Of a stretch of 64,000 nt of DNA, positions 4,540-62,262 are shown piece after piece. Source of the stretch: Streptacidiphilus rugosus AM-16 (GTDB lineage: Bacteria; Actinomycetota; Actinomycetes; Streptomycetales; Streptomycetaceae); NCBI RefSeq assembly GCF_000744655.1, contig NZ_JQMJ01000001.1, forward strand, positions 186,001-250,000, given 5' to 3'. Position 1 is the first letter of the stretch; the number at the start of each line of letters is the position of its first letter. The position numbers were made by a program, and so were the translations under genes. The notes beneath the pieces are model-generated. The model saw nothing but the letters and a program-made list of their open reading frames with translations. It had not been told where the DNA came from and did no database searches.

Positions 4540-4638
4540 ATGCGTCAGCTGCAGATACGAAAGACCCGTTCCTGTGAGCGCCGGGACGACAGGGATGTCG
4601 ATCTGCGCACCCCCGCCGGTCGGCAGCTGCCGTACTGA
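4540..4638 (+). CDS. Possible 32-residue small protein
   Basis: ATG at 4540 is preceded by GAGGTGAG at ribosome-site spacing. The frame gives a basic, Arg- and Asp-rich peptide of 32 residues with one Cys, ending LPY. It has no signal peptide or recognised family. It lies 40 bp before the hypothetical gene at 4679. The good ribosome site is the only evidence. Confidence 0.3.
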   Translation: MRQLQIRKTRSCERRDDRDVDLRTPAGRQLPY

Positions 4639-27427: not shown

Positions 27428-27459
27428 GGGTAACTCCCGGTCGTAGTAGTCGGGAGGGT

Positions 27460-27975: not shown

Positions 27976-28028
27976 GGGGATTCCCTTGGATGTTGTGGTG
28001 GATGACGGGACGGGTGGTCGGCTCGTCG

Positions 28029-30390: not shown

Positions 30391-30438
30391 CGACACGAAC
30401 GCACCCGGGCGTTTCCCCGGGTTCGTGGACACCGGTTG

Positions 30439-31335: not shown

Positions 31336-31619
31336 CAGCTGGTCTCCCGGGCGAAATACTTCGCGGCCCTGCGCAGGATCTCCCGCTCGAGCTCGAGCTC
31401 CTTCACCCGCGCCCGCAGCTGCCGGTTCTCCTTCTCCATCGCGCTCGCCTCACCGGCCCCCGGCCGGGCAGCCGCCTCCGCATCACGCACCCAGATCCGC
31501 AGCGTCTCGTGGTTGACGCCCACGTCCTGGGCCACCGACGCGTACGTACCGCCCGGCGTGGCGTGGTACAGCGCGACGGCATCGGCCCTGAACTCAGGGC
31601 TGTACTTCGACGTCCCCAA
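31332..31619 (-). CDS. IS3-family transposase OrfA (copy 2)
   Basis: 95 residues from TTG at 31619 with AGGAG upstream; identical to copies 1 and 3. It has the N-terminal helix-turn-helix and the C-terminal coiled coil. The longer open frame to 31727 runs out of the element into flanking DNA. Confidence 0.88.
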   Translation of the reverse strand: MGTSKYSPEFRADAVALYHATPGGTYASVAQDVGVNHETLRIWVRDAEAAARPGAGEASAMEKENRQLRARVKELELEREILRRAAKYFARETSW

Positions 31620-31748
31620 CGGGAACTCCTGTTCTACGGATCCTCGCGATCCAATGATCAGGGTGTCCACGACCTGGGGGAAGCGCCCCCCACCCCTGCG
31701 GCCGGGGACAGGAAAGGAACCGGCCACACGCCAAGCCTGCCCCGACCA

Positions 31749-33256: not shown

Positions 33257-33372
33257 TTAGTACTCCAGTGGCACTTCTCCATTTGTCCTGGTCGCAGGGC
33301 GCTTTTTGAGTCTACTGAGCTGACGTTGCGTCAGGGTAGTGGTGGATCGTGACTCACCCGATCGGGGTGCGT
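33257..33372 (+). repeat. Left 116-bp terminal inverted repeat of the IS701-type element
   Basis: It pairs, ungapped, with 34690-34805; I count one mismatch in 116 positions (GTCGCAG versus GTCACAG). Its outermost four bases TTAG may belong to the target site. Confidence 0.9.
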
Positions 33373-34801
33373 TGAACCAGTCATGGAGGCGGCGAGTGAT
33401 GTCGAAGTAAGTCTGTGGGATGCCGAGTTGGAGTCGTTGCTGTTGCGGGTGGGCGAGCGGTTCGGCCGTGTCGAGCCGCGGCGGCGGATGCGGGACTACG
33501 TGCGCGGTCTGCTGGGTCCGGTGGGCAGGAAGAACAGCTGGCAGATAGCCGAGTACGCGGGTCATGACTCCCCGCATGGACTCCAGCGGCTGCTGTCCTG
33601 GTGCCAGTGGGATCCGGAGGAGATCCGCGACGACCTGCAGGACTACGTGGCTGAGCGGCTCGGGCAGCCGGATGGCGTGCTGATCGTCGACGACACCGGG
33701 TTCTTGAAGAAGGGCACCGTTTCCGCCGGCGTCCAGCGCCAATATTCCGGGACGGCGGGGCGCACGGAAAATTGCCAGATCGGGGTGTTCGCCGCCTACG
33801 CCTCCGCCAAGGGCCGGGCCCTGGTGGACCGCGAGCTTTACCTACCCAGATCCTGGACCGAGGATCCCGATCGGTGCCGCGCCGCCCGGATCCCCGAAGG
33901 TAAGTCGTTCGCGACCAAGCCGGAGCTGGCACGCGTCATGGTCCGGCGGGCGTTGGACTCCGCCCTGCCGATCGCCTGGGTGACCGCGGACGCGGCCTAC
34001 GGGCAGGAGTGGAACTTCCGGCGCATGCTGGAGGAGGCCGGTGTGGGCTATGTCCTGGCGGTACCCAAGTCACAGCAGGTCAAGTCACCTGCGGGGAGCT
34101 GGCGTATCGATCATGTCCTGACCGGCGCCCCGGCCGAGGCCTGGGAGCGGATCTCCTGCGGGGACGGTGCGAAGGGGCCGCGAGTCTACGACTGGGCCGC
34201 GGCCAAGCTGCCCACCATCGAGGGATCAGACCCTGCCCACCACCGCTGGGTACTGGCCCGCCGCAGCCTCGCACGTCCCGAGGAGGTCGCCCACTACCTC
34301 GCATTCGCCCCTGCGGACACCAGCGTCGCACAGCTGGTCCGGGTAGCCGGCGCCCGGTGGGCCATTGAGGAGTGCTTCCAGGCAGCGAAGAACGAGTGCG
34401 GCCTGGACCAGTACGAGGTCCGCCGCTATGTCGGCTGGTACCGCCACATCACCCTGGCCATGCTCGCGCATGCCTTCCTGGCCGCCAAGACCGCCCACGC
34501 CCTCGAAAAGGGGGCCGAAGAAACGGTTCGAGCAGCCTCGTTCCCCTCACCGTGGCAGAAGTCCGACGGCTCCTGGACCTTGCCCATCCCCCCACAGCCC
34601 GGCACCGGTCACCCACGCACCGGCTCCACTGGTCCCACTGGCGCCGACGCCATCAGGCCATCGCCCGCCGCTGCCACTACCAGCGTCGCACGCACCCCGA
34701 TCGGGTGAGTCACGATCCACCACTACCCTGACGCAACGTCAGCTCAGTAGACTCAAAAAGCGCCCTGTGACCAGGACAAATGGAGAAGTGCCACTGGAGT
34801 A
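33261..34801 (+). mobile_element. IS701-family element with very long terminal inverted repeats
   Basis: About 1.54 kb, one transposase gene, ends TACTCCAGTGG. Flanks read TTAG on the left and CTAA on the right, both fitting the YTAR target preference reported for this family; they are complementary to each other instead of directly repeated. The two 116-bp ends could fold the whole element into a giant stem-loop. Confidence 0.85.
33383..34708 (+). CDS. IS701-family transposase
   Basis: 441 residues, DDE transposase of the IS4 superfamily, IS701 type. Visible motifs: GVLIVDDTGFLKKG (first Asp), QRQYSGTAGRTENCQIGVF, ELYLPRSWTED, FATKPELARVMVRRAL, WVTADAAYGQEWNFRR (second Asp) and RWAIEECFQAAKNECGLDQY (Glu). 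The length is normal and I see no break. The last six codons lie in the right inverted repeat. ATG at 33383 has no strong ribosome site; an internal ATG is possible. Confidence 0.9.
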   Translation: MEAASDVEVSLWDAELESLLLRVGERFGRVEPRRRMRDYVRGLLGPVGRKNSWQIAEYAGHDSPHGLQRLLSWCQWDPEEIRDDLQDYVAERLGQPDGVLIVDDTGFLKKGTVSAGVQRQYSGTAGRTENCQIGVFAAYASAKGRALVDRELYLPRSWTEDPDRCRAARIPEGKSFATKPELARVMVRRALDSALPIAWVTADAAYGQEWNFRRMLEEAGVGYVLAVPKSQQVKSPAGSWRIDHVLTGAPAEAWERISCGDGAKGPRVYDWAAAKLPTIEGSDPAHHRWVLARRSLARPEEVAHYLAFAPADTSVAQLVRVAGARWAIEECFQAAKNECGLDQYEVRRYVGWYRHITLAMLAHAFLAAKTAHALEKGAEETVRAASFPSPWQKSDGSWTLPIPPQPGTGHPRTGSTGPTGADAIRPSPAAATTSVARTPIG

Positions 34802-34805
34802 CTAA
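34690..34805 (-). repeat. Right 116-bp terminal inverted repeat of the IS701-type element
   Basis: This is the inverted partner of 33257-33372. It overlaps the last 19 nt of the transposase gene. Confidence 0.9.
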
Positions 34806-41724: not shown

Positions 41725-42453
41725 GTGTCAGCGAAGACCTTGCGGAGCCAGATCCCGCAGCTGGTAGCGGCCTTACTGTTGCTGGTGGGGATGTTGACCG
41801 CCGCGACTGCCCAGGCACAGGCGGCGGCCCCGCAGCCGCTCGTCAGCAGTATGACCATTTGCTCCGACTCGCCCATTCCCACAGGCTGGGTCGTGACAAG
41901 CTCCCACGCTAGCAGCAGCTGCGTGGGCACCCGCTACGAGTACACGATCACCCAGCTCACCACGCAGACCAGTTCGATTGTCTGCTCCTTCTCGCCCGTC
42001 CCCGCGGGCTGGGTCATCACGAGCTCCCGCAACACCAGCGTCTGCCTCGGTGCCCGCTACGAGTACACGATCACCAAGATCACTACGCAGACCAGCGCGG
42101 TCGTCTGCTCCTTCTCACCTATCCCTGACGGCTGGATCATCACAGGCTCCCGCAACACCAGCATCTGCCTCGGTGCCCTCTACCAGTACACGATCACCAA
42201 GATCACTACGCAGACCAGTGCCGTCGTCTGCTCCTTCTCGCCGATCCCCGCAGGCTGGGTGATCACAAAGTCCCACGCGACCAGCGCCTGCCTCGGAATC
42301 CTCTACGAGTACACCATCACCGAACTCACCACGCAGACCAGTGCGGTCGTCTGCTCGTTCTCGCCCATCCCCGATGGTTGGGTCATCACAGGTTCCCACG
42401 CCACCAGCATCTGTCTCGGTGCCGTCTACGAGTACATCATCACCAAGGTCTGA
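41725..42453 (+). CDS. Secreted protein of five 41-residue two-cysteine repeats
   Basis: 242 residues, GTG at 41725 with GAGAGGA upstream. Signal peptide LVAALLLLVGMLTAATAQAQ, cleavage near AQA. From residue 43 the protein is five units of exactly 41 residues (the last 36), consensus CSFSPIPxGWVITxS, then TSxCLGxxYEYTITKI and TTQTSA. Each unit has two Cys about 20 apart, likely one disulphide each, and an invariant GW. Short proteins with single units of this kind occur in bacteria, from memory, but I do not know a function. The protein has no anchor, so it should be released. Confidence 0.78.
   Translation: MSAKTLRSQIPQLVAALLLLVGMLTAATAQAQAAAPQPLVSSMTICSDSPIPTGWVVTSSHASSSCVGTRYEYTITQLTTQTSSIVCSFSPVPAGWVITSSRNTSVCLGARYEYTITKITTQTSAVVCSFSPIPDGWIITGSRNTSICLGALYQYTITKITTQTSAVVCSFSPIPAGWVITKSHATSACLGILYEYTITELTTQTSAVVCSFSPIPDGWVITGSHATSICLGAVYEYIITKV
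41851..42450 (+). repeat. Five tandem 123-bp coding repeats
   Basis: The period is 123 bp (41 codons); the units differ at scattered positions, so they are older than the 48-bp repeats at 19476. The last unit lacks five codons. Confidence 0.85.
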
Positions 42454-42649
42454 CCAGCTGCCGCCGGCCCGGTGAAATCAGCGGGGAAGGGGCTCTCACG
42501 GGACCTGGCTCGGCCGCACCGACAACCGCGCCGGGACAGGCCCGCTGGGGTCGGCGTGATGGCCTGACCAAGCGTCATGGTGCCCGCAATGGCCAGCCGG
42601 GACCCCCGGTATCGAACTTTCGCCCGAAGACCATTGGCCCGTTTTGATG

Positions 42650-44575: not shown

Positions 44576-47538
44576 TCAGTCCTGGCTGAGCTCTTGGCGA
44601 GCGCGACTCACGGCCTCGCGAGCGAGTGCATAGGAGGCCGCGATGTCGCGGGCGACGTCCGTGACTCCGTCAAGGCCGCCGTCGGCGGTGAGGTTCTCCA
44701 GGCGTTGGCACAGGGGGGTGAGCTGGTCCAGCCCGAAGGTCTTGCAGTTGGACTTGAGGGTGTGGGCAGCCCGGTGCACCAGTTCCGCGTCGCCGCTGTG
44801 CACACCCTGCCGGATCTCCTCGACCAGGTGGGGCGAGTCCTCGAGAAACGCGTCCATCAGCTGCGCCGTGAACTCGACATCCAGCGAACTGATCAGTGGC
44901 CCAAGAGTGGCGGAATTGAGGATGGGTTTGTCGGCCATGACGGCCTCCGGTTGCTGCTCCGGCTGCGGCGGGGAAGCGGCCTCGGAGCCGGTTGTGACGG
45001 TTGTGTCAGCAGAGATGGGAGTCACGGGCGTGTACTGGGCCAGGGCGTGAGCGAGGGTTTTCAGGCTCAGGGGTTTGGTGAGGTAATCGTCCATGCCGGC
45101 GGCTATGCACGCCTCGCGGTCCCCGCGCATGGCGCTGGCGGTGAGGGCGATGATGCGGGGGCGCTGGTGGCTGGGCCACTCCTGGTGGATGGCCCGGGAA
45201 GCGGTCAATCCGTTCATGACTGGCATGTGGACATCCATCAAGACGACGTCGTACGGCTTTGCGCGCAGCGCTTCCAGCGCTTGGGCACCGTCGCCCACCG
45301 CATCAGCCGTGTAACCGATTTTGGAGAGCATGCGCAGGGCGAGCTGCTGGTTGACGTTATTGTCCTCGGCCAGCAGGATCCGAAGTGGTTTCAGCTCCTC
45401 CCCAGGGGGCTCGTCTGCGACCGCGCGGCGCTCGGTCAGCGCGCTCCGCTCGGGCAGGAGCGCAGCGAGCAGGCTCGCGTAGAGGAGGGCGGCCCTGATC
45501 GGCTTGGTGTGGCAGGCAGAGAACAGCGCCAGATCCTCGGGGCTGGCATCGGGCTTGCCGACGGACGTCAAGAGGATCATCGGCAGGTTCGCGCGGTGGC
45601 GACTGATCTCGCGGGCCAACTCGATGCCGTCCTGTTCAGGCATCCACAGGTCAAATACGGCTACGTCGAAGGGGTCGCCGTCGCGGATCCACCGCAGGGC
45701 CTCCTGGGGCGAGCTGGTGGCACGTACGTGCATGCCCCAGGCGTTCGCTTGCCGAGCCAGCAGCATGCGGTTGGTCGCGTTGTCGTCGACCACCAGCATG
45801 CGCATGCCCTGGAGTTCGGTACGTGATGCGGCCCGCGACTGTCGGAGCTGTGCTGGGGTCTCACGAGTGACGATCGTGAAGTGAAACGTGGAACCCCGTC
45901 CGACCTCGGACTCCGCCCAGATGGTTCCGCCCATCAGTTCCACCAGGCGTTGGCTGATTGCCAGGCCCAGGCCGGTGCCGCCGAAGCGGCGAGTAGTGGA
46001 GGAATCCAGCTGATCGAACGGTTGGAAGAGCCGGTCGATCAGTTCCGACGGGATGCCGATCCCCGTGTCGCGCACCGAGAACTGGACGGTGAAAACTCCC
46101 TGCTCGCTGGGCGCGCGGCTCTGCAGCGGCGTCCCGGCGTCCGATGACTCGACACGTGCGGCGGTCAGCACGACCTCACCGGCCTCGGTGAACTTCATGG
46201 CGTTACTGAGCAGATTGACGATGACCTGGCGAAGCCGCAGGCCGTCGCACATGATTTCGTCGGGCAGTTCGGGGTCGATCGCGAAGGCCAGGTCGAGCTC
46301 GTGCTTCTCGTCGGCCCTGGGGGTGATCAGGTCGAACGCGGACTCGATGCACTGACGCAGGTCGGTCGAGACTTCCTCGATCTCGAACTTGCCGGCCTCG
46401 AACTTGGAGAAGTCCAAAATGTCATTGATGATCGTCAGCAGGCTGTCGGCGCTGCTCTGGACGATCTCAGCGTAGTTGCGCTGCTCGTCGCTCAGCGAGG
46501 TGCCCATCAGCAGCTCTGACATCCCCATGACCGCGTTCATCGGGGTGCGGATCTCATGGCTCATGGTGGCAAGGAACGTGCCCTTGGCGCGGTTGGCGGC
46601 GTTGGCTTCGCGCGCCGTCGACTCCAGTGCCTGTGCGGCGATCTCCCGTTCCCGTACCCGGCCCAGCTGACTGACCAGGCCGGCGATGAGGCTGATGGCC
46701 GATTCGTCGAGCGGCTGGAGGGTAGTGGTGAAGAACTCCACCACCCCCCCGGTCCCCTGATGAAGGAGCACAGGGAAGCCCACAGCTCCGGCGATCCCCG
46801 TCTGTTCTGAGAGCGTCGGCGTCAGGCCGCTCTCCGGTCCCAGCCGTTCCGGACCCTGTGGGCGGCCGCTCGTCTGGGTCCGCACAGTCAGTGCAGACGG
46901 CCCGCGGTCGAGCGCGGCCCGCAGCCGCTCCCGTACAGACTCCGGCCACTGATCGGCCATGACCCAGACCGCGGCAGACGTGAAGGCGTCCGCTGTTGTG
47001 GCGAGGGCAGGCTCAGGTGCGGGCACGGCTGTGTAAGCGCAGGCGGCGGGCCAGCCCATGTACGCGCAGATCAGGGGCAGCCCGTCGGCGAGGACCTCGT
47101 CCCAGGTGCTGGCTTTGTTCCCGGCAGCCGCGACGCCCTGCAGCAGCTGCAAGGAGCGGGTGCGCTGGTGCAGCTGCTCAGTCCGTAGACGTACCTTCTC
47201 TTCGACGGTGGAGTAGCTCTCCTGCAGGTTGTCGGCCATCGTGTTGAAGGTGTCGGCCAGCGACGCGATCTCGTCCCGGCTGGTCACGCGGGCTCGGCGT
47301 TCGAGCTTTCCAGCGGCGAGTGCTCTCGCGGCGTCGGCCACGTGAGAGATGTTCTGGGCGATACGGTGCGACATCAAGGTGGTCAGAGCGATGATCAGTG
47401 CCAGTCCCGAGCCGATCGTCACCAGCAGGATCGTGTTGTGTCCTTGGACCGTGCTGATCCGCGAATGCAGCATGCGGTCCTCCTGATCGAACAAGGAGTT
47501 CCACAGCTGCGTATCGGTCCGCAAGGCGTCCGCGGTCC
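44576..47538 (-). pseudogene. Hybrid sensor histidine kinase, C-terminal part (split by IS3 copy 3)
   Basis: This is residues 310-1295 of a kinase continued at 48821-49749. In order: second membrane helix (TILLVTIGSGLALIIALTTL), HAMP with coiled coil, GAF-like domain (about residues 440-600), HisKA with the phospho-acceptor in [19 protein letters not shown], HATPase (NLLSNAMKFTEAGE, GTGLGLAIS), receiver 1 (MLVVDDNA, VAVFDLWMPEQDG, LTSVGKP), receiver 2 (LLAEDNN, VVLMDVHMPVMNG, LTASAMRG, LTKPLS) and HPt (HRAAHTLKSNCKTFG). All catalytic residues are present. A TTG at 47524 could restart translation, which would give a kinase lacking the sensor domain. Domain order is that of phosphorelay kinases (BarA/ArcB-like). 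Confidence 0.9.
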
Positions 47539-47607
47539 GGGCGCTTCCCCCAGGTCGTGGACACCCTGATCATTGGATCGCGAGGATCCGTAGAACAGGA
47601 GTTCCCG

Positions 47608-47895
47608 TTGGGGACGTCGAAGTACAGCCCTGAGTTCAGGGCCGATGCCGTCGCGCTGTACCACGCCACGCCGGGCGGTACGTACGCGTCGGTGGCCCAG
47701 GACGTGGGCGTCAACCACGAGACGCTGCGGATCTGGGTGCGTGATGCGGAGGCGGCTGCCCGGCCGGGGGCCGGTGAGGCGAGCGCGATGGAGAAGGAGA
47801 ACCGGCAGCTGCGGGCGCGGGTGAAGGAGCTCGAGCTCGAGCGGGAGATCCTGCGCAGGGCCGCGAAGTATTTCGCCCGGGAGACCAGCTGGTGA
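47608..47895 (+). CDS. IS3-family transposase OrfA (copy 3)
   Basis: 95 residues, TTG at 47608 with AGGAG 6 nt upstream; identical to the other two copies. A GTG at 47557 in the terminal repeat opens a longer frame (112 residues) but has no ribosome site. Confidence 0.88.
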   Translation: MGTSKYSPEFRADAVALYHATPGGTYASVAQDVGVNHETLRIWVRDAEAAARPGAGEASAMEKENRQLRARVKELELEREILRRAAKYFARETSW

Positions 47896-48788
47896 GCAGC
47901 CGCTTTCAGTTCGTCGAGGATCACCGGGACGCCTACGGCGTGAAGCGGCTGTGCCGGATGATGCAGGTCTCGCGGTCCGGGTTCTACCGGTGGCTGGCCG
48001 GCGCGGACGCGCGCATGGAACGGGCGAGGGCGGACGCGGAGCTTGCCGAGCGGATCGCCCGGATCCACACCGACTCGGACGGGACCTACGGGGTTCCGCG
48101 CGTCACCGCCGAGCTGCGGGATGCCGGGGACCGGATTAACCACAAGCGCGTGGAACGCGTGATGCGCACGTTCGGCATCGTCGGGCTGCACCTGCGCAAG
48201 AAGGTCCGCACCACGATCCCCGAGCCGTCGGCGACACCGGTGCCGGACCTGCTGGACCGTGACTTCACCGCGGCCAGGCCGAACACCAGGTACGTGGGCG
48301 ACATAACCTACCTGCCCATCGGTGGCGGCCAGTTCCTTTACCTGGCCACGGTGTTGGACCTGTGCTCGAAACGGCTGGCGGGCTGGTCGATCGCCGACCA
48401 CATGCGCACGTCCCTGGTGACCGACGCCCTGCGGGCCGCCGCGGCCGCCCGCGGCGCAGCCGGACTGCGCGGGGCGATTTTCCACAGCGACAACGGGGCC
48501 CAGTACGGGTCCAGGGACTTCGCGCACGTCTGCGCGGAGCTCGGCGTGACCAGATCGCGCGGCGCAGTGGGCACCAGCGCGGACAACGCCGCCGCGGAGA
48601 GCTTCAACGCGACCATGAAACGCGAGACGCTCCAGGGACGGAAACGGTGGAACGGGGCCCGCGAAGCCCGACTCGCCGTCTTCCGGTGGGTGACCCGCTA
48701 CAACACCCGGCGGCGGCACTCCAGCCTCGGCCAGATCAGCCCGGTCACCTACGAACAACGATCAACTACGCTGGTCGTTGCCGCATGA
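47892..48788 (+). CDS. IS3-family transposase OrfB (copy 3)
   Basis: 298 residues with intact DDE motifs, identical to copies 1 and 2; GTG start overlaps orfA by 4 nt. It runs antisense to the interrupted kinase gene. Confidence 0.93.
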   Translation: MSSRFQFVEDHRDAYGVKRLCRMMQVSRSGFYRWLAGADARMERARADAELAERIARIHTDSDGTYGVPRVTAELRDAGDRINHKRVERVMRTFGIVGLHLRKKVRTTIPEPSATPVPDLLDRDFTAARPNTRYVGDITYLPIGGGQFLYLATVLDLCSKRLAGWSIADHMRTSLVTDALRAAAAARGAAGLRGAIFHSDNGAQYGSRDFAHVCAELGVTRSRGAVGTSADNAAAESFNATMKRETLQGRKRWNGAREARLAVFRWVTRYNTRRRHSSLGQISPVTYEQRSTTLVVAA

Positions 48789-48820
48789 CAACCGGTGTCC
48801 ACGAACCCGGGGAAACGCCC

Positions 48821-49749
48821 GTCCCACCCTGGACGCCTGCCAAGGTCAGGGCAGAGCCGCCAGAGATCTGCTGGTCAGCGATGCCGATGAGGCCGTTGGC
48901 CGTTGTGCTCACTTGGTCCAGCAAGGGAGCCAAGGCGGGGCTTAGGTCGGTGTCGTTATTGTGGGCCGGGGTGGCGTCGAACGCCCGGTTGAGGGCGTCG
49001 TTGAGCTGGCCGAGCTGCTGGCTGAGCAGGCCGCTCGCCTGGATGAGACCGTCCGTGTCAGCCGGGTGCCTGGTCTGGGCGGCGATGCCGACCGTATCGC
49101 CCAGGGAGCTGATCTGATTCACCAGCGGAGGCTCCAGTGCCGACAGCGCGGAGCCGATGTAGAAGGTGTCGGGCTGCGGATCCAGGTTGATCTTGGATAC
49201 ATCGCCCACGTAGGAGTACAGCGACAGCTGGTTGCCGACCAACTGCTGAGTGAAGCCCGTGGCGAGCGCATCATCCGGGCCGACGGCCTTCACCTCCTGC
49301 CACTGGCCGATCAGGCCCGCGAACACGAGCTGGCCCTTGCCCGCAGTGGTCAAGGCCTCGTCCAGGCGCCGCTGCAGTGAGGGGTCTGTGCCCTTCAACT
49401 GGGTGAAGTCACCGTCCACGGCGCTTTGGAGGGCCGCTATCTGCTGTGGCGCCACCTGAGCGCCGTGAGCAATCTCGGTGGACACCGAGCGGTACTGGAT
49501 CAGGTCCAGCGTCAACGCGCTGAGGGAGCGCAGATACGCGGTGCCTGCCAGCTCCTGCTGTGCGACGTTGATGCTGCCGTTCTGCTGATTGACCAGATAC
49601 GCCACAGCCACCAGAAGCGGTACCAGGAACGCCATCGCGATGACCACGAGCTTGTGCCATATCCGCAACCTGAAGCGCCCGAAGCGCGTCCTAGCTTCAG
49701 ACGGCGAAGAACGGTACGCCGGGGCCGAAGGGAACGGGTTGCGCCTCAT
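48821..49749 (-). pseudogene. Hybrid sensor histidine kinase, N-terminal part (split by IS3 copy 3)
   Basis: ATG at 49749. Residues 1-309: basic cytoplasmic start, first membrane helix (KLVVIAMAFLVPLLVAVAYL), then about 260 extracytoplasmic helical residues. The segment QELAGTAYLRSLSALTLDLI resembles the start of nitrate/ligand-sensing helical bundles in kinases and chemoreceptors. The second membrane helix lies across the insertion. In the present arrangement the frame runs into the IS and stops at 48766. Upstream on the same strand are two substrate-binding lipoproteins. Confidence 0.88.
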
Positions 49750-50037
49750 GGATCGTCGCGTTCTTCAGCGGGGCGCAGAACGACGTGGTCAGCCGCCTGG
49801 CACTGTGAGCCCAAGTCTGCCGTATCGTCGCCCAACCTGCATGTGGAGGGCAGGCGGCTCAAACGTCCCGACCCCGATCCGGGCATCATCCTCCTGCCCG
49901 CACGCCGACCTGGCCGACACCCTCACGGCTCTGCCGCCGCGACGGCTCCGGCGATCAGGCCACAGCCGACAGAATCCGTGCGAAGACCGTCAAGGAAAGC
50001 GCGAAGCCCAGCCCCGTTCTGCGGGGCGGACCAAAGA

Positions 50038-51630
50038 TCAGTAGGACTGGACCTCAGCCAGCGAGGAGAGATATGCGTCCGGGCGAGGGGCGAAACCCTG
50101 GACTTTCGGGCCGACCAGATAGTAGTCATCCGACCGGAACAGCCACACCCATGGCGATTCGCTGAGCAACTCCATCTGAAGCCTGCCGTAGACAGCCTGC
50201 CGCTGCCCTGCGCTGTTGCTGGCGTTGCCCTGGGCGAGCAGGCCGGCCAGAGTCGGCGAATCCAAGCCCCCCGGCGTGGCGAGACTTCCGCCGGTCCCGA
50301 AATAGCGCCCGTACATCAGGTAGGGATCGAACGAACCGCCGTTGAGCGCCACCGCCGCGTCGAAGTCACCCGCCAGCCACGCGGTGACATAGGGAGCGGT
50401 GGGCAGCTGCTTGAGCTCCATCGACACACCGATCTTCAACAGCTGCGCCTGGAGGTCCTGTGCCTCGGCGACGCCCGTCGCGTACTCGCCCGTCTCGACA
50501 ATCGTGGCGAGCGCGAACCCGTGGGGATACCCAGCTGCGGACAGCATCGACTTGGCCTTTGCGGTGTCGCCAGGCGTACAGGGCAAGCCGTCGGTTGGTG
50601 AGTAGGTGAAGGCCGGGCTGGTGATCGGGCCAGTGACCGTGCCGTCGCCGAACGTGGCGACCTGCAGGACTTCGCTCTTGTTGATGGCGCAGGCAAGGGC
50701 CTGCCGCACCTGCTGCTTCCGCAGCGGCCCGCGGCGCCCGTTAAGCATCAGGACGTGGTAGGCCAGTGCTGGCTCCTTCACCAGCTGGAACGCCTCCCCG
50801 GAGAGGCTGGCCTGCCGGGCAACGCCGGGGTCAGTGAGCTGGCCCAGCTGGAACGCTCCGGTGCGCATGCCCGAAAGGATCGAGGACTCGTCCGAAATGA
50901 CCTTGAACTCCAGTGTGCCGATCCTTGGTTTGCCGCCGTAGTACCCCGGATTGGCGGTGAGCACCACCTGTCGACCCTGGTCCCATTGCTTCCAAACGAA
51001 CGGACCGGTGCCGTCGGGGCTCTTGCCGACAGTGCCGGCGGCGATGTTCGACTTGGATTCGATCGATGAGTTGATCGAAGCCAGCGAGTACAGCAGCGCC
51101 CCCGAGGGCTTGGACAGGTGCAGGACCACCTTCGACGGGGACGGAGTGTCCACAGCCGTGATCGCGAGCAGGTTGGATCGGGAGACAGCGCCGGTGGACG
51201 GGTCCAGGATCCGCTGGATCGATGCCTGGACATCGGCCGAGGTGAAGGGGGAGCCGTCATGCCAAACCACCCCGTTCCGCAGGGAGAACGAGATGGTCAA
51301 ACCATTGTCTGACGTGGTCCAAGAGGCCGCTAGACCGGGTTCGATCAGCCCGTTGGGACTGGTGGTGACCAAGGTCGAGTAAACCAGGCTGAGGGTCTGC
51401 TGCGTTTGGAACGCAGTCGCCAGTTCCGGGTCGAGCCTGTCGATGTCCCCGGTCCGGGCGACCACGAACGGCGTCTGGGCGGCAGGTGAGGACGGCGCCT
51501 TCGACGGACTTCCGCTTGTGCATGCGCCGAGACCGCCCGTTAGGGCGGCGATCACCGCGGCGGCGACCCCGGCTCTGAGGCGGACCGTACGGCGTGCGCT
51601 GTCGCGGCCTGGGGGCGACACAGCTGCCAT
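50038..51630 (-). CDS. ABC-type oligopeptide/nickel-family substrate-binding lipoprotein (SBP_bac_5)
   Basis: 530 residues, ATG at 51630. A signal with lipobox LTGGLGAC (Cys 37 region) is followed by an extracytoplasmic class C binding protein: DIDRLDPELATAFQTQQTLS, LRNGVVWHDGSPFTSADVQA, GTGPFVWKQW, VRQALACAINKSEVLQVATF and WVWLFRSDDYYLVGPKVQGF. It normally delivers peptides or similar solutes to Opp/Dpp permeases. No permease or ATPase gene lies within the window nearby. It sits between another binding protein and the hybrid kinase on the same strand, so a sensing role is possible. Confidence 0.9.
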   Translation of the reverse strand: MAAVSPPGRDSARRTVRLRAGVAAAVIAALTGGLGACTSGSPSKAPSSPAAQTPFVVARTGDIDRLDPELATAFQTQQTLSLVYSTLVTTSPNGLIEPGLAASWTTSDNGLTISFSLRNGVVWHDGSPFTSADVQASIQRILDPSTGAVSRSNLLAITAVDTPSPSKVVLHLSKPSGALLYSLASINSSIESKSNIAAGTVGKSPDGTGPFVWKQWDQGRQVVLTANPGYYGGKPRIGTLEFKVISDESSILSGMRTGAFQLGQLTDPGVARQASLSGEAFQLVKEPALAYHVLMLNGRRGPLRKQQVRQALACAINKSEVLQVATFGDGTVTGPITSPAFTYSPTDGLPCTPGDTAKAKSMLSAAGYPHGFALATIVETGEYATGVAEAQDLQAQLLKIGVSMELKQLPTAPYVTAWLAGDFDAAVALNGGSFDPYLMYGRYFGTGGSLATPGGLDSPTLAGLLAQGNASNSAGQRQAVYGRLQMELLSESPWVWLFRSDDYYLVGPKVQGFAPRPDAYLSSLAEVQSY

Positions 51631-51831: not shown

Positions 51832-53097
51832 CTACGGGGTGGGGATGCCGCCGGTCGGCGGCTCAGGGAGCGGCGGGGTGTAGGGAATCACAGGGCCAGT
51901 GCCATCGTCGGTGGTGACCGGCAATCCCTGCCGGACGAGCGTGTCGCCCCTGACCGACGCGATCTGGGCGCCGGTGTATCCGCCGTGCGAAGTGTGGCTG
52001 TAGTCAAGTGGCGCCAGGCCGGGGCCGGGATCCAGCCCGTCTTCCTGGAGACCGGCGGTGAGCGAGGAGCGGGTTGGGTTCTTCCCGGCACGCTGGAGGG
52101 TCTGGACGAAGGTGTACGCGGCGGCCATCCCGTACTGGAACCACTGGTCGAACGGCTCGGACGGCTCGTACCGAGCGTGAACCCGTTTCGCCAAGGCTGT
52201 CCAACCGCTGGAATTGTCGCTGAAGGGCGTCACGAAAGTGTCTGTGACGACGCCCTGGATGAGCGGGTTGCCCTGCGTGGACGACGGCAGACCGGAAGGC
52301 GTCGTCAGGTCGATACCGCTTGAGCTGACCACCAACCGTGCGGTATCGCCGAGCTTTTGCTGAGCGGAGCGCAGCAGCACAGTGTCGGAGGGGCTGATGA
52401 AGGCGACGATCACGTCGGCTCTGGCCTGGGCTATGGCTTCGCTCTGAGCGGTGATCGGGGAGCCGGATGGGTGGATCTGTCGTATGACTACAGATGAGGC
52501 GGGGATTTCCTTGTCGAGCCCCCGCACGCCAAGGTTCCCGTCGATGTCGTCCGTGTACAGGTAGGCGACTCTCTTTCCTTTGAAGGATTGCGCAACGTAG
52601 GCGCCGAGGATCTTCCCCTCGCGAAGGGAATCCGTCTGCCAGCCGAACGTGTATGGGAGCAGGACCGGATTGTTCCAGCATGTGCAACCGCTGGCAGGGA
52701 AGAGATCGGGAACCTTCTGGTCGTTGAGATAATCGACGACGGCCCGGTGTGGTGCTGTGCCGAAGCCGTTGAAGATGGCGAAAACCTTGTCCTTCTCAAC
52801 CAGTTTGTGGACGACGGTCACAGTGTTGGCAGGATCGGAGGCGTCATCTTGATAATCGTATATGATCTTGCGTCCGTTGACGCCGCCCTTGTCGTTGACG
52901 TAGTCGAAGTAGGCCTTGGCCGCTGGCGCGATCTCACCGAATCCAGCGGCAAATGGCCCGGACAGGGGTTGATGACTGCCAATGGTGACCGTGGTGGCCG
53001 TGACCCCGGGCGTGGATGCACCGCTCCCTGGGCTGCTGCAGCCTGCTCCAGCCAGAACCAGCGCGGCCAGTGTCACGACGGTCGAGCGGTGGTCCAT
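51832..53097 (-). CDS. Branched-chain amino-acid-type substrate-binding lipoprotein (Peripla_BP_6)
   Basis: 421 residues, ATG at 53097. Lipobox LVLAGAGC, then the Leu/Ile/Val-binding-protein fold: TIGSHQPLSGPFAAGFGEIA, AAKAYFDYVNDKGGVNGRKI, YDYQDDASDPANTVTVVHKL and KGKRVAYLYTDDIDGNLGVR. The C-terminus is Pro-rich. As with its neighbour, no liv permease genes are adjacent. Gene order in transcription is this gene, the oligopeptide-type gene, then the hybrid kinase. Confidence 0.9.
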   Translation of the reverse strand: MDHRSTVVTLAALVLAGAGCSSPGSGASTPGVTATTVTIGSHQPLSGPFAAGFGEIAPAAKAYFDYVNDKGGVNGRKIIYDYQDDASDPANTVTVVHKLVEKDKVFAIFNGFGTAPHRAVVDYLNDQKVPDLFPASGCTCWNNPVLLPYTFGWQTDSLREGKILGAYVAQSFKGKRVAYLYTDDIDGNLGVRGLDKEIPASSVVIRQIHPSGSPITAQSEAIAQARADVIVAFISPSDTVLLRSAQQKLGDTARLVVSSSGIDLTTPSGLPSSTQGNPLIQGVVTDTFVTPFSDNSSGWTALAKRVHARYEPSEPFDQWFQYGMAAAYTFVQTLQRAGKNPTRSSLTAGLQEDGLDPGPGLAPLDYSHTSHGGYTGAQIASVRGDTLVRQGLPVTTDDGTGPVIPYTPPLPEPPTGGIPTP

Positions 53098-54845: not shown

Positions 54846-55472
54846 TCAACCCTGACGTTCCAGAACGGGGCGAGGCTGGGCCCCGTCCTGGAACGGCGGC
54901 CGGCTGTTCCATCCGGTCAGCACGGGCAGGCCGTGTTCGGTGCCGAAACTGCAGACGGCCGCAGTCTCCAGCCGGAAGCCGGCACCGGCCTGGGGCGCAA
55001 GGCCCAGGCGTCGCGCCGTCAGCACCCGAAGTACGTGCCCGTGGGCGACCAGCACGACGTCGCCCCCCAGCGTGGCGGGAGGTAGGGCGTCGATCCGCGC
55101 CAGCACACGATCCACTCGGGCGGCAACCTGGTCGGCGTTCTCGCCGTCCGGTGCGCCGTGGGTGAACAGGTTCCAGTTCGCGTGCGTCTGCTGGATCTGC
55201 GCTGTGGTCAGCCCCTCATAGCTGCCGTAGTCCCATTCGTGCAGATCGGGCTCGACGATCGGGTTGGGAAGCCCGGCGAGTTCCGCGGTCCGTCGTGCCC
55301 GGGACAGCGGGCTGATGAGCACCGATGCTACAGGTCGTGTGGTCAGAAGGGGACCGACGGCGCGCGCCTGTTGCTCGCCGAGGGGGGTGAGGTCGATGTC
55401 CGTGCGGCTGGTGTGGCGTCCGTTGCGGCTCCACGCGGTTTCGCCGTGGCGGAGCAGGATGAGTGCGTTCAT
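54846..55472 (-). CDS. Histidine phosphatase family protein (phosphoglycerate-mutase-like)
   Basis: 208 residues, ATG at 55472. The catalytic motif LILLRHGETAWSRNGRHTSR carries the phospho-histidine (RHG). The second catalytic His is in VVLVAHGHVLRVL, and the acid residue in LHEWDYGSYEG. The fold is that of cofactor-dependent phosphoglycerate mutase/acid phosphatase. Closest types act on small phosphate esters. It lies 35 bp after gnd on the same strand, so it may be the last gene of the pentose phosphate operon. Confidence 0.9.
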   Translation of the reverse strand: MNALILLRHGETAWSRNGRHTSRTDIDLTPLGEQQARAVGPLLTTRPVASVLISPLSRARRTAELAGLPNPIVEPDLHEWDYGSYEGLTTAQIQQTHANWNLFTHGAPDGENADQVAARVDRVLARIDALPPATLGGDVVLVAHGHVLRVLTARRLGLAPQAGAGFRLETAAVCSFGTEHGLPVLTGWNSRPPFQDGAQPRPVLERQG

Positions 55473-55507
55473 GCGTTGTGCCTGTCTCGTGCTTGCCTGT
55501 GTCGTGC

Positions 55508-56395
55508 TCAGTCCGGCTTGGCGGCCGCGGTCGTGGCGTGGCCGCCGAACTCGTTGCGGAGCGCGGCGATCATCTTCATCTGCGGGGAGTCGTCCTGACG
55601 CGAGGCGAACCGCGCGAAGAGCGAGGCGGTGATCGCGGGCAGCGGCACCGCGTGGTCGATCGCGGCCTCCACCGTCCAGCGGCCCTCGCCCGAGTCCGCG
55701 GCGAAGCCCTTCAGCTTGCCCAGGTGCTCGTCCTTGTCGAGGGCGTCCACGGCCAGGTCCAGCAGCCAGGAGCGGATGACCGTGCCCTCCTTCCAGGAGC
55801 GGAAGATCTCGCGGACGTCAGTGACGCTGTCCACGGCCTCCAGCAGCTCCCAGCCCTCGGCGTAGGCCTGCATCATGGCGTACTCGATGCCGTTGTGGAC
55901 CATCTTCGCGAAGTGGCCGGCGCCGACCTTGCCCGCGTGGACCGAGCCGAAGTCGCCCTCGGGCTTGAGCGCGTCGAAGATCGGCTTGACCTTCGCGACG
56001 TCCTCGACGGAGCCGCCGTACATCAGGGCGTAGCCGTTCTGCAGGCCCCAGACGCCGCCGGAGACGCCGCAGTCGACGAAGCCGATGCCCTTCTGCGCGA
56101 GGTCGGCCGCGTGCTTCTCGTCGTCGGCCCAACGCGAGTTGCCGCCGTCGACGACGATGTCGCCCGGCTCCAGCAGCTCGGCCAGCTCGTCCACGGTGGA
56201 CTGGGTCGGACCGCCGGCGGGGACCATGACCCACACCACGCGCGGCGCGGCCAGCGAGCCGACCAGCTCCTTCAGGCTCGTGACGTCGGACAGGGCGGGG
56301 TCGCGGTCGTAGCCGACAACGGTGTGGCCCGCGCGGCGGATGCGCTCGCGCATGTTGCCGCCCATCTTGCCGAGACCGATGAGTCCGAGCTGCAT
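55508..56395 (-). CDS. gnd: 6-phosphogluconate dehydrogenase (decarboxylating), short type
   Basis: 295 residues, ATG at 56395. N-terminal Rossmann motif GLIGLGKMGGNMRERIRRAG is followed by VVGYDRDP. An Asp at that position usually favours NAD over NADP. Substrate-binding and catalytic segments are VDGGNSRWADDEKHAADLA, GFVDCGVSGGVWGLQNGYAL, HAGKVGAGHFAKMVHNGIEY and GSGEGRWTVEAAIDHAVPL-like sequence (DSGEGRWTVEAAIDHAVPLP). The length is that of the short YqeC-type enzymes, not the 470-residue type. It oxidises 6-phosphogluconate to ribulose 5-phosphate and CO2. Confidence 0.93.
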   Translation of the reverse strand: MQLGLIGLGKMGGNMRERIRRAGHTVVGYDRDPALSDVTSLKELVGSLAAPRVVWVMVPAGGPTQSTVDELAELLEPGDIVVDGGNSRWADDEKHAADLAQKGIGFVDCGVSGGVWGLQNGYALMYGGSVEDVAKVKPIFDALKPEGDFGSVHAGKVGAGHFAKMVHNGIEYAMMQAYAEGWELLEAVDSVTDVREIFRSWKEGTVIRSWLLDLAVDALDKDEHLGKLKGFAADSGEGRWTVEAAIDHAVPLPAITASLFARFASRQDDSPQMKMIAALRNEFGGHATTAAAKPD

Positions 56396-56487
56396 AGAAG
56401 CGTTTCCGTTCGTAGTGGGGATGAATGTGTGTCAGTGACCGGGCGGTGTCGGCTTCTTGTCGCGGTGCACGACCAGTTGCGGCGCGG

Positions 56488-57513
56488 TCACTTCTGGGTC
56501 CGGGAGGAGGACGCCGTCGCCTTCTTGGCGGCCGGCTTCGCGGCCGGTTTGTTCGCCGGCGGGTCGACGACCTCGCTGGTGGAGGACTGCGAGTGCAGGT
56601 TGTCCACGCCGTAGCGGACCGCCGAGGCGTAGATCAGGTCCGGGTCCAGGCGGCGCAGCTCCTCGGCGATCAGCTCCGAGGTCTCGCGTCGCTTGAGCGC
56701 CACCATCCGGTCCGGCTGGCCCGGCATGGACAGCTTGGCCAGCAGGCCGTCCGGACGGTCCAGGCAGACGTCGCCGTCGGCGGTGTGCATCCGGACCGCG
56801 GTGATGCCGGGGCCCTCGCTGACCGTCCGCTCCACCTTGATCTTCAGCCGCTCGGCCAGCCAGAGCGCCAGCAGTTCGGTGCTCGGGTTGTACGACTCGC
56901 CCTCGACCGAGGCGGACTCGACCGCCACGTGGCGCTGGTCCAGCGCCGCCGCCAGCATCGAGCGCCACGGGGTGATCCGGGTCCAGGCCAGGTCGGTGTC
57001 GCCGGGGGCGTAGGAGTCGGCCCGGGCGGCGAGCTGGGTGACCGGGTTCTCCGCCGTGACGGCGTCGGTGATCCGACGCTGGGCCAGCGCGCCGAGCGGG
57101 TCCTCGGACGGGCTCTTCGGCGCGTTCTCCGGCCACCAGACGACGACGGGGGCGTCCGGCAGCAGCAGCGGCAGCACGACCGACTGGGCGTGCGCGGCCA
57201 GTTCGCCGTGCAGCCGCAGCACGACCGTCTCGCCGGTGCCCGAGTCCGAGCCGACCCGCACCTCGGCGTCCAGCCGGGCCTCGGCCCGGGCCCGGGGCGA
57301 GCGCCCCGGACGCTTGATGACGGCCAGGATGCGCGAGGGGTGCTCGCGCGAGGCGTCGGAGGCGGCCTTGAGCGCGTCGTAGGCGCTGCCCTCGTCGGTG
57401 ACGATGACCAGGGTCAGCACCATGCCGACGGTCGCCGTGCCGATGGCCCGGCGCGCGTCGATCAGCGCCGCGTTGATCTTGCTGGAGTTGGTGTCCGTCA
57501 GATCGATCTTCAT
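56488..57513 (-). CDS. opcA: Glucose-6-phosphate dehydrogenase assembly protein OpcA
   Basis: 341 residues from ATG at 57513, overlapping the zwf stop (ATGA). The long upstream open frame in this phase is a zwf shadow. Recognisable OpcA segments: [74 protein letters not shown] and ALKRRETSELIAEELRRLDP. It ends with an Ala/Lys-rich tail. OpcA activates or assembles Zwf in actinobacteria and cyanobacteria. Confidence 0.93.
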   Translation of the reverse strand: MKIDLTDTNSSKINAALIDARRAIGTATVGMVLTLVIVTDEGSAYDALKAASDASREHPSRILAVIKRPGRSPRARAEARLDAEVRVGSDSGTGETVVLRLHGELAAHAQSVVLPLLLPDAPVVVWWPENAPKSPSEDPLGALAQRRITDAVTAENPVTQLAARADSYAPGDTDLAWTRITPWRSMLAAALDQRHVAVESASVEGESYNPSTELLALWLAERLKIKVERTVSEGPGITAVRMHTADGDVCLDRPDGLLAKLSMPGQPDRMVALKRRETSELIAEELRRLDPDLIYASAVRYGVDNLHSQSSTSEVVDPPANKPAAKPAAKKATASSSRTQK

Positions 57514-59060
57514 GGCCGACGCCAGCTCCTGCCGTCTCGTGCGAGCATCTCGTCCGCTTCCTCGGGGCCCCAGGTGCCCGCCTGGTACTGCGCGGGGCGC
57601 CCGTGCTTGTCCCAGAACTGCTCGATGGGGTCCAGGATCCGCCAGGACTCCTCGACCTCCTGGTGGCGCGGGAACAGGTTCGCGTCCCCGAGCAGCACGT
57701 CCAGGATCAGTCGCTCGTAGGCCTCGGGGCTGGACTCGGTGAAGGACTCGCCGTAGGCGAAGTCCATCGTCACGTCCCGCACCTCCATCGAGGTGCCCGG
57801 CACCTTGGAGCCGAAGCGGACGGTGACGCCCTCGTCCGGCTGCACCCGGATGACCAGCGCGTTCTGGCCCAGCTCCTCCGTCGCCGCGGCGTCGAAGGGC
57901 AGGTAGGGGGCGCGCTGGAAGACGACCGCGATCTCCGTGACGCGGCGGCCCAGACGCTTGCCGGTGCGCAGGTAGAACGGGACGCCGGCCCAGCGCCGGT
58001 TGTTGATCTCCAGCTTCACCGCGGCGAAGGTGTCGGTCTTGGACTTGGGGTCGATCCCCTCCTCCTCCAGGTAGCCGAGCACCTCCTCGCCGCCCTGCCA
58101 GCCGTGCGCGTACTGGCCGCGCACGGTGTGCTTGCCCAGGTCCTCGGGGATCCTGACCGCGGAGAGCACCTTGAGCTTCTCGCCGACCAGCGCCTTCGGG
58201 TGGAAGGAGGCGGGCTCCTCCATCGCGGTCAGCGCCATCAGCTGCAGCAGGTGGTTCTGGATGACGTCGCGCGCCGCGCCGATGCCGTCGTAGTAGCCCG
58301 CGCGACCGCCGATGCCGATGTCCTCGGCCATGGTGATCTGCACGTGGTCGACGTAGCCGCGGTTCCAGATCGGCTCGAACATCGAGTTGGCGAAGCGCAG
58401 CGCCAGGATGTTCTGGACCGTCTCCTTGCCGAGGTAGTGGTCGATCCGGAAGACCTCGTCCCGCGGGAAGACCTCGTGGACGACCTTGTTCAGCTCCTGC
58501 GCGGAGGCGAGGTCGTGCCCGAACGGCTTCTCGATGACGGCCCGGCGCCAGGAGGCCCTGGGCCCCTCCTGCCCGTTGGCGGGCAAGGAGGGCGGGTCGG
58601 CCAGGCCGTGCGCCTTGAGCTGCTGCACCACCTGCGGGAAGAACTTGGGCGGCACGGACAGGTAGAAGGCGAAGTTGCCGCCGGTGCCCTGCGCCTTGTC
58701 CAGCTCCTCCAGCGTCTTCTTGAGGAGCTGGAACGCCTCTTCGTCGTCGAAAGTGCCCTGGACGAAGCGCATGCCCTTGGCCAGCTGCTGCCAGACCTCC
58801 TCGCGGAAGGGTGTGCGCGAGTGTTCTCTGACGGAGTCGTGGACCTCTTGGGCGAAGTCCTCGTGCTCCCACTCGCGGCGGGCGAAGCCGACGAGCGAGA
58901 AGCCCGGTGGCAGCAGGCCGCGGTTGGCGAGGTCGTAGATGGCCGGCATCAGTTTCTTGCGCGACAGGTCGCCGGTGACACCGAAGATGACGAGGCCGGA
59001 CGGCCCCGCGATACGCGGGAGCCGTCGGTCCGCCGGGTCACGCAGGGGGTTCACCGTCAT
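57510..59060 (-). CDS. zwf: Glucose-6-phosphate 1-dehydrogenase
   Basis: 516 residues, ATG at 59060. Nucleotide motif [20 protein letters not shown] is followed by the substrate signature [14 protein letters not shown] (catalytic Lys in HYLGKE) and [18 protein letters not shown]. It oxidises glucose 6-phosphate with NADP, the first step of the pathway. It overlaps tal and opcA at both ends, so the three are translated from one mRNA. Confidence 0.96.
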
Positions 59061-60178
59061 ACCGTGCCCTCTCCGTGGCTTTCGAGTGCTGTGTGTACGG
59101 CCTGCAGAAGTTCGTCCCAGGAGGCCTCGAACTTGTCGACGCCCTCGTCCTCGAGCAGCTGGACGACGTCGTCGTAGGAGACGCCGAGCGCTTCGAGCTT
59201 GTCGAGCACGCCCTTCGCGTCCGCGTACTCGCCCGTGACGGTGTCACCGCGGACGACGCCGTGGTCGGCGACGGCGTCCAGGGTGGCCTCGGGCATGGTG
59301 TTGACGGTGCCGGGGGCGACCAGGTCCACGACGTACATGGTGTCGTCGTAGTTCGGGTCCTTGACGCCGGTCGAGGCCCACAGCGGACGCTGCGGCTTGG
59401 CGCCGGCGGCGGCCAGGGCGTTCCAGCGCTCGCTGCCGAAGACCTCCTCGTAGGCCTCGTAGGCGAGCCGCGCGTTGGCGACGGCCGCCCGGCCCTTGAG
59501 GGCGAGCGCCTCCTCGGTGCCGATCTTCGTCAGCCGCTTGTCGATCTCCGTGTCCACGCGGGACACGAAGAAGGAGGCGACCGACTCGATCGTGGAGAGG
59601 TCGTGGCCGTTGGCCTTCGCCTGCTCCAGACCGGTCAGGAAGGCGTCCATGACGGCCTTGTAGCGGTCGAGCGAGAAGATCAGCGTCACGTTGACGCTGA
59701 TGCCCTCGGCGAGCACCGCGCTGATCGCCGGCAGGCCCGCGAGGGTGGCCGGGATCTTGATGAAGGTGTTGGGGCGGTCGACCAGCCACCACAGCTGCTT
59801 GGCCTCGGCGATGGTCGGCGCCGTCTCGTGCGCCAGGCGCGGGTCGACCTCGATGGAGACCCGGCCGTCGCGGCCGTTGCTCGCGTCGTACACCGGGCGC
59901 AGCACGTCGGCCGCGTCGCGGACGTCGGCGGAGGTCATCATCCGCAGGGCCTCGTCGACGGTGACGCCGCGCACGGCCAGGTCGGCCAGCTGGGCCTCGT
60001 AGCCGTCGCCGGAGCCGATCGCCTTCTGGAAGATCGACGGGTTGGTGGTCACGCCCACCACGTGCTTGTCGCGGACCAGCTCGGCCAGGTTGCCCGAGGT
60101 CAGCCGCTTGCGGGACAGGTCGTCCAGCCAGATCGCCACACCCTGGTCACTCAACTGCTCGACAATCGACTTCATCAT
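59057..60178 (-). CDS. tal: Transaldolase
   Basis: 373 residues from ATG at 60178, which follows AAGGAAG at 5 nt; a second ATG is next to it. Key segments: [26 protein letters not shown] and the Schiff-base Lys in [13 protein letters not shown], then [20 protein letters not shown] and [20 protein letters not shown]. The length fits the actinobacterial/plant-type Tal. It overlaps tkt and zwf by 4 nt each. Confidence 0.95.
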
Positions 60179-62262
60179 TTGTTCTTCCTTGCTGCAAGGT
60201 TGTTGAGGCTGTCCCTGGCTGCTTGAGCAACCCCATCCGCGGTGAACCCGAACTCGCGGAACAGCACCTTGGCGTCGGCGCTCGCGCCGAAGTGCTCCAG
60301 GCTGACGATGCGTCCGGCCTCGCCGACGAAGCGGTACCAGGTCAGCGCGATGCCGGCCTCGACCGCGACGCGCGCCTTGACCGAGGGCGGCAGCACGCTG
60401 TCGCGGTACTCCTTGGTCTGCTCCTCGAACCACTCGATCGACGGCATCGACACGACGCGGGTCGGGACGCCCTCGGCCTGCAGCGCCTCGCGGGCCGCGA
60501 CGGCGAGCTGCAGCTCGGAGCCGGTGCCGATGAGGACGACCTTCGCCTCGCCGCCCTCGGCCTCGGTGTGCACGTAGCCGCCCTTGGCCGCGTCCTCGTT
60601 GCGGGCGTAGGTCGGCACGCCCTGGCGGGTCAGCGCCAGACCGTGCGGGGCCGGGTTGGCGGTGTGGCGGCGGGTGATCTCGGCCCAGGCCACGGCCGTC
60701 TCGTTGGCGTCGGCCGGACGGACGATGTTGAGGCCGGGGATGGCGCGCAGCACGGCGAGGTGCTCGACCGGCTGGTGGGTCGGGCCGTCCTCGCCCAGGC
60801 CGATGGAGTCGTGCGTCCACACGTAGGTGACTGGCAGCTTCATCAGCGCGGCCAGGCGGACCGCCGGGCGCATGTAGTCGGAGAAGACCAGGAAGGTGCC
60901 GCCGTAGATCCGGGTGTTCCCGTGCAGCGCGATGCCGTTCATGGTCGAGCCCATGGCGTGCTCGCGGATGCCCCAGTGCACCGTGCGGCCGTACGGGCTG
61001 GCCTCGGGCAGCGGGTTGCCCACCGGGAGGAAGGACGAGGAGGCGTCGATGGTGGTGTTGTTGGAGCCGGCCAGGTCGGCCGAGCCGCCCCACAGCTCCG
61101 GCAGCACGCCGCCCAGACCGACCAGGACCTTGCCGGAGGCGGCGCGGGTCGCGATCGAGGAGCCGGTCTCGAAGGAGGGGATGCTCTGCTCCCAGCCCTC
61201 GGGCAGCTCGCCCGCGGTGATCCGGTCGAAGGAGGCGGCTCGCTGCGGGTTGGCGGTGCGCCAGTCCGCGAGCTGCTTCTCCCACTCGGCCTTGGCCTGC
61301 GCGCCGCGCTCGCCGACCTTGCGGGCGTGCGCCAGCACCTCGGGCGCGACGACGAAGGACTTCTCCGGATCGAAGCCGAGCACGCGCTTGGTGGCCGCGA
61401 CCTCGTCCGCGCCGAGCGCGGAGCCGTGCGCGGCCTCGGTGTTCTGCGCGTTCGGCGCGGGCCAGGCGATGATCGTGCGCATCGCGATGATGGACGGCCT
61501 GCCCGTCTCGTTCCTGGCGGCGGTCAGCGCGGCGTTCAGCGCGTGCACGTCCACGTCGCCGGAGGCGGCGGGCTCGATGCGCTGGATGTGCCAGCCGTAG
61601 GCCTCGTAGCGCTTCAGCACGTCCTCGGAGAAGGCGGTCTCGGTGTCGCCCTCGATCGAGATGTGGTTGTCGTCGTACAGGAAGACCAGGTTGCCCAGCT
61701 TCTGGTGGCCGGCCAGCGAGGACGCCTCGGAGGAGATGCCCTCCTCCAGGTCGCCGTCGGAGACGATCGCCCAGATGGTCTGGTCGAAGGGGGAGGCTCC
61801 CTGGGGAGCCTCCGGGTCGAACAGGCCGCGCTCGTAGCGGCTGGCCATCGCCATGCCGACGGCGTTGCCGACGCCCTGCCCCAGCGGACCGGTCGTGGTC
61901 TCGACGCCCACGGTGTGGCCGTGCTCGGGGTGGCCCGGGGTCAGCGAGCCCCAGGTGCGGAAGGACTCCAGGTCCTCCAGGGTCAGGCCGTAGCCCGAGA
62001 GGTAGAGCTGGATGTAGAGGGTCAGCGAGGTGTGGCCCGGCGACAGCACGAAGCGGTCGCGGCCGACCCACTGCGCGTCGGAGGGGTCGTGGCGCAGGAA
62101 GCGCTGGTAGATCAGGTACGCGGCCGGAGCCAGGCTCATCGCCGTACCGGGGTGGCCGTTTCCGACCTTCTGCACTGCGTCCGCCGCCAGGACGCGGACG
62201 GTGTCGACCGCCCTCTGGTCAAGCTCGGTCCACTCGAAGGTGTTGCTCGGCGTCGTGCTCAC
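60175..62262 (-). CDS. tkt: Transketolase
   Basis: 695 residues, GTG at 62262. Thiamine-diphosphate motif begins [13 protein letters not shown] ([20 protein letters not shown]). Other landmarks are [58 protein letters not shown] and [20 protein letters not shown]. First gene of the operon; it lies 46 bp after the oxidoreductase gene on the same strand, leaving little room for its own promoter. Confidence 0.96.

Follow-up and report, generated by a model that had tools for sequence, protein, structure and literature searches.

Interruption of a hybrid histidine kinase gene by an IS3-family element in Streptacidiphilus rugosus AM-16, and a predicted NIT-type fold for its sensor

A 1,295-aa hybrid histidine kinase of Streptacidiphilus rugosus AM-16 was very probably interrupted by a single recent IS3-family transposition that duplicated 4 bp (GTCC). 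The interrupted gene occupies the minus strand of 44576-49749 in the window, the whole stretch of 64,000 nucleotides that was analysed. This conclusion draws on the element and the duplication, on the reading frame, on how the joined product aligns with unsplit homologues, and on the presence of eight identical element copies in the genome. The event itself is of an ordinary kind, one more IS3 insertion, and is routine as gene disruption. Its value lies in being clean and datable by identical sister copies, and in hitting a single gene of a redundant signalling set, which makes it a natural knockout. Of wider value is the sensor half of the kinase, where a multi-phylum domain, mostly without a NIT sequence match, is now linked to NIT by its predicted fold.

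The insertion sequence was delimited by sequence reading and script comparison. It lies on the plus strand at 47539-48820 and is 1,282 bp long. It is flanked by the two copies of GTCC, at 47535-47538 on the left and 48821-48824 on the right. The 5' part of the kinase gene (48825-49749, minus strand) encodes a first hydrophobic segment, recognized by eye, and an extracytoplasmic sensor with a predicted all-helical, NIT/NasR-like fold. The 3' part (44576-47534, minus strand) encodes a second hydrophobic segment, also recognized by eye, and the HAMP, HisKA, HATPase_c, two receiver and HPt domains found with Pfam. The insertion site falls late in the sensor, some 50 residues short of HAMP. When the element and one GTCC (1,286 nt) are removed, 3,888 nt remain, which read through 1,295 aa to a single terminal stop, and the junction of the joined protein is ...VQGGT|ADALRTDTQLW.... 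The original prediction had described a kinase split by an IS3 copy with a 4-bp GTCC duplication, a frame restored over 3,888 nt, and a junction of GGT followed by ADALRTDTQLW; the coordinates, both flanks and the joined translation bear this out. The 5' fragment does not end at the edge of the element. Its frame reads 55 nt into it and stops at 48766, giving 327 aa.

The element shows the features expected of the IS3 family. It contains two frames overlapping by 4 nt on the plus strand. orfA (47557-47895) on its own scores 45 bits with NCBIfam transpos_IS3 (family cut-off 160), and its match is to the N-terminal part. orfB (47892-48788) encodes a 298-aa DDE integrase core that scores 317.4 bits with NF033516 transpos_IS3 (cut-off 160) and matches PF00665. 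The ends form inverted repeats, in which 23 of the first 27 bases match. Target duplications in the IS3 family range from 3 to 5 bp, and those of this element are 3-4 bp.

Further copies of the element were sought in the genome (4 contigs, 9,002,860 bases). Scoring 40 of 278 first-look candidates yielded eight full-length copies, all of them 100% identical by direct comparison on either strand. Besides the one in the kinase, two of them lie on the minus strand of the window, at 1550-2831 (duplication CAT) and 30407-31688 (duplication CCC). Within the same scored candidates, seven copies are on the contig of the window (C1, 632,428 bp) and one is on C4. Under uniform placement such a bias has P = 6e-8, in a test that ignores local hopping. 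Matching flanks are present at all eight copies: six have 3-bp duplications, and two have 4-bp ones (CTAC and GTCC). Zero differences over 8 x 1,282 bases limits the mean divergence per copy to less than about 3e-4 at 95%, barring gene conversion. We infer that the copies spread recently; their identity could also stem from gene conversion. At four of the eight sites (L002, L003, L007 and L008), coding-like open frames enter both edges of the element on one strand, so it has probably struck several genes, the kinase among them.

Within the genomes and plasmid records searched, the exact element was confined to the AM-16 genome. Eleven of 13 congeneric genomes contain some match, and no match of at least 100 bases exceeds 81% identity (29 candidates scored per genome). 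Among 72,556 plasmid records, from which those of the AM-16 genome itself may be left out, no match above 90% was found; the best, NZ_CP109164.1, is 87.2% identical over the full length. The window also contains a different transposase gene of the DDE type (33383-34708, PF13546), which is enclosed by a pair of 116-bp inverted repeats with 99% complementarity, the whole spanning 33257-34805. Ends as long as 116 bp seem unusual for an insertion sequence.

The joined protein was compared with intact kinases. A homologue search gave 134 proteins at E <= 0.001, of which the best 120 were listed. Among the matches listed, besides the C fragment of the gene itself (P0003), nine (P0004-P0012) have alignments that cover 87-100% of the query; two of the nine, P0009 and P0011, come from C1. 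P0004 and P0006 are 57-59% identical to the joined protein over 98-99% of the query. The alignment with P0004 (59% over 99%) carries the junction across an unsplit protein. An alignment was then made with 11 unsplit proteins, namely the four paralogues of AM-16 and seven proteins of other streptomycetes. Residues 300-320, which span the junction, are free of gaps in all 11. Identity to the homologues over residues 290-330 is low (27-51%), with short gaps about ten residues before the junction. The junction therefore aligns to full-length homologues, although not in a well-conserved region.

None of the 11 aligned homologues is split at the insertion point, and five relatives from other genomes of a family sample have uninterrupted frames of 1,177-1,339 aa. 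A check for relatives that naturally end and begin here thus returned none. These continuous genes argue against a naturally split kinase. An artefactual join of unrelated sequences would be expected to break the target duplications, which instead match at all eight copies found and so count against chimeric assembly. That the two pieces represent either a natural split or an assembly chimera is extremely improbable.

The joined reading keeps the H-box, N-box, G1, G2, the Asp of both receivers, the receiver Lys and the HPt His, as expected of a hybrid phosphorelay kinase and in agreement with the earlier claim that the catalytic residues on both sides are intact. Some of these features vary among intact relatives: acidic residues of the first receiver differ in P0004 and P0006, and HPt is absent at the corresponding place in five of the 11 aligned proteins. 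In a leave-one-out comparison, 238 of 247 invariant residues (96.4%) are kept in the joined reading, and the 11 intact homologues keep 91.9-99.2%. Because retention is within the range of intact proteins, the joined reading shows no sign of decay. We also considered that decay into a pseudogene had begun before the element landed, so that the insertion had no effect. With four intact paralogues one copy could be dispensable, and the sensor is found in none of the 13 congeners. However, the 3,888 nt contain no other stop or frameshift, and the invariant residues are retained as in intact homologues, which makes this explanation very unlikely. The insertion had been predicted to be young, and the eight identical copies, the intact duplications and the lack of excess loss of invariant residues support this.

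These observations suggest the following course of events. Before the insertion, the kinase would have carried its sensor between two hydrophobic segments, followed by HAMP, HisKA, HATPase, two receivers and HPt. Since the sensor was found in none of the 13 congeneric genomes, and none of them offers an empty site, the pre-insertion state is reconstructed from homologues of about 50-64% identity. A single IS3-family transposition would have landed near the end of the sensor and duplicated GTCC. Full-length kinase is presumably no longer made. The 327-aa product, consisting of the sensor and one membrane segment, would be unable to signal, and the catalytic part is probably silent, or at most weakly expressed. 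The intact paralogues on the same contig may maintain signalling of the same kind. Less certainly, a small ligand may be sensed through the NIT-like bundle, perhaps passed on by neighboring solute-binding proteins, and phosphate may then travel His-Asp-His-Asp to an unlinked response regulator. No response regulator gene was identified among the near neighbors scanned with Pfam.

The catalytic part may be dormant but is translatable, and full loss of activity is therefore not proven. An open frame of 982 aa begins at TTG 47524, which the original prediction had named as the start of a sensorless fragment. The frame is indeed open, but this TTG is the first of several possible starts and not the best candidate. 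The recorded protein P0003 is 972 aa long, which by length would place its start at TTG 47494. An in-frame ATG at 47473 would give 965 aa and is preceded, five nt upstream, by AGGAGG (47484-47479). A product started at any of these three codons would still include every catalytic domain as well as HAMP and one membrane segment, and could be a sensorless kinase that is constitutively active or biased toward phosphatase activity. The intact open frame, the AGGAGG and the absence of excess loss among the invariant residues fit such an outcome. Against it, the AGGAGG before the same ATG recurs in one paralogue out of four (L027:4101-7736) and may thus follow from the codons alone. The region 47300-50100 contains no sigma-70-like site, where 0.2 would be expected by chance with a consensus that covers streptomycete promoters poorly, which makes for a weak test. 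A terminator-like site lies on the kinase strand within the element (48159-48147), one of 2 in the region against 1.0 expected. The genes of the element are on the opposite strand, so their transcripts would be antisense to the kinase. We consider an active sensorless kinase unlikely, and the interruption of the full-length kinase remains our preferred account. The claim of a natural knockout is supported, with one qualification. One of five related kinases is hit, and a phenotype may be masked because four intact paralogues are on the same contig.

The sensor domain itself is widespread. It is present in several phyla, attached to kinases, SpoIIE phosphatases and chemoreceptors. In Pfam, the window sensor has no match to NIT (PF08376) at E 1, and only 2 of 46 aligned members match it at E 0.01, leaving 44 without. 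The predicted fold is nevertheless all-helical and of the NIT type, as in NasR (PDB 4akk). This prediction ties the sensor domain to NIT and is the main addition to what had been noted earlier. The relevant passages of PMC8199190 describe a G-x-x-R nitrate-binding motif of the NIT domain and report that NasR itself keeps it only in part. The motif is absent from residues 54-307 of the window sensor, and from the aligned 60-90 region in all 46 members. Instead, G69 is conserved in 45 and R74 in 40 of the 46, with four residues between them, and a DPxxDT motif is invariant in the group. Sequence searches of solved structures with two alignments (A1 and A2) and one relative returned nothing meaningful. 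The best match of A2, Occludin (E 0.013), and that of the relative, hemolysin E (E 0.66), were both judged to be chance similarity of helical proteins.

Genes of this sensor type number five in AM-16, the broken one and the four intact paralogues, and all are on C1. The sensor of the broken gene is 44-55% identical to those of the paralogues. In a sample of 200 genomes from the family, six encode the sensor by a single-protein query, AM-16 included. The plasmid records, possibly without those of AM-16 itself, gave no match. When the sensor region of P0004 served as query in a further homologue search, eight proteins were listed. Two paralogue loci contain possible phosphorelay partners. At L026, a free-standing HPt gene (4104-4598) is directly upstream of a paralogue kinase that has no HPt domain, and the phosphorelay there may be split between two genes. 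At L028, a receiver-domain gene (6539-7099) starts inside the end of the paralogue kinase, with an overlap at 7086-7099, and is a candidate partner.

C1 contains none of the 8 complete 16S genes of the genome, of which 7 are on C4 and 1 is on C3; a tRNA-Leu (cag) gene is found on it at 11294-11383 of the window. C1 has CbiA/ParA-type matches, and so do C4 and C3. Because C4 ends in rRNA, contigs may be broken there, and C1 is not proven to be a plasmid. A central carbon block at 54846-62262 aligns at the DNA level with plasmid-borne tkt, tal, zwf, opcA, gnd and pgi of Streptomyces, Rhodococcus and Tsukamurella at 73.5-81.4% (rows covering at least 19% of the query), and is adjoined by a histidine-phosphatase-fold gene. 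The window also contains three related tandem copies at 26900-28694, of which the two members scanned contain ricin-B-type lectin domains, tandem repeats of 48 nt at 19403-19834, and tandem repeats of 123 nt at 41847-42461 in an ORF with odd codon-position composition.

Two solute-binding protein genes are found upstream of the kinase on the same strand. The first (50038-51630, minus strand) is of the SBP_bac_5 type and the second (51832-53097, minus strand) is of the Peripla_BP_6 type; by eye, their N termini contain lipobox-like sequences, GGLGAC and LAGAGC, respectively. Nearby solute-binding protein genes accompany three of the five sensor genes of AM-16. Two Peripla_BP_6-type genes precede the paralogue at L027:4101-7736. 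The paralogue at L027:13034-17041 has a convergent SBP_bac_5 gene whose start lacks a clear lipobox. Peripla_BP_6 genes number five on C1 (632 kb) and six on C4 (7.1 Mb), and three of those five precede sensor kinase genes by no more than a few kb.

Profiles of SBP_bac_5 and Peripla_BP_6 detected no such gene at any of six Streptomyces and Kitasatospora loci with long flanks (L029-L034), so linkage is ruled out as proof of a three-component system. Of 85 outside loci, 16 have an SBP_bac_5 gene in the same orientation as the sensor gene and downstream of it, and all 16 are cyanobacterial by their titles; this search profiled two types of binding protein, and many of its loci have short flanks. 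L038, among these 85, has a weak, distant Peripla_BP_6-type match. Four of the six seeds of the SBP_bac_5 profile are cyanobacterial and were first found by tblastn with the window protein, which makes the profile scores circular but not the tblastn matches. The cyanobacterial cases may come from one lineage. In cyanobacteria the module also occurs in fusion with SpoIIE phosphatase, as in the sensor protein at L041, while an SBP_bac_5 gene follows at a short distance. A speculative and rather doubtful proposal is that the broken kinase and its four paralogues on C1, taken as an accessory contig, employ a widespread NIT-fold branch that has no name yet, with invariant DPxxDT and without G-x-x-R, as a docking module for solute-binding proteins. 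If so, kinases, phosphatases and chemoreceptors would share the module as a receptor for binding proteins.

Compared to known systems, the element is similar to IS3 elements of streptomycete plasmids in length class and IS3-type transposase annotation; for the AM-16 copy, two overlapping frames, inverted repeats and 3-4 bp duplications are seen in addition. The kinase shares the HisKA-HATPase-REC core, HAMP and HPt with the TorS/BarA architecture (TIGR02956, PRK11107). It differs from that type in its two receiver domains by Pfam and in its sensor sequence. Its profile scores are strong yet below both curated cut-offs: the C part scores 474.9 bits with TIGR02956 (TorS; cut-off 676.5), and the kinase scores 434 bits with PRK11107 (cut-off 890). 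The sensor group differs from the NIT domain, whose G-x-x-R is kept only partly in NasR itself, in lacking that motif over the aligned region and in being marked by the invariant DPxxDT. The relevant passages of PMC10384115 and PMC8534201 describe CuaDSR and TorT-TorS, respectively, as three-component systems with a solute-binding protein. In the window the kinase is likewise near solute-binding protein genes with lipobox-like starts, whereas genes for binding proteins of the profiled types were found in none of the six Streptomyces and Kitasatospora relatives. The arrangement offers a hint, no more, of binding-protein-assisted sensing as in CuaDSR.
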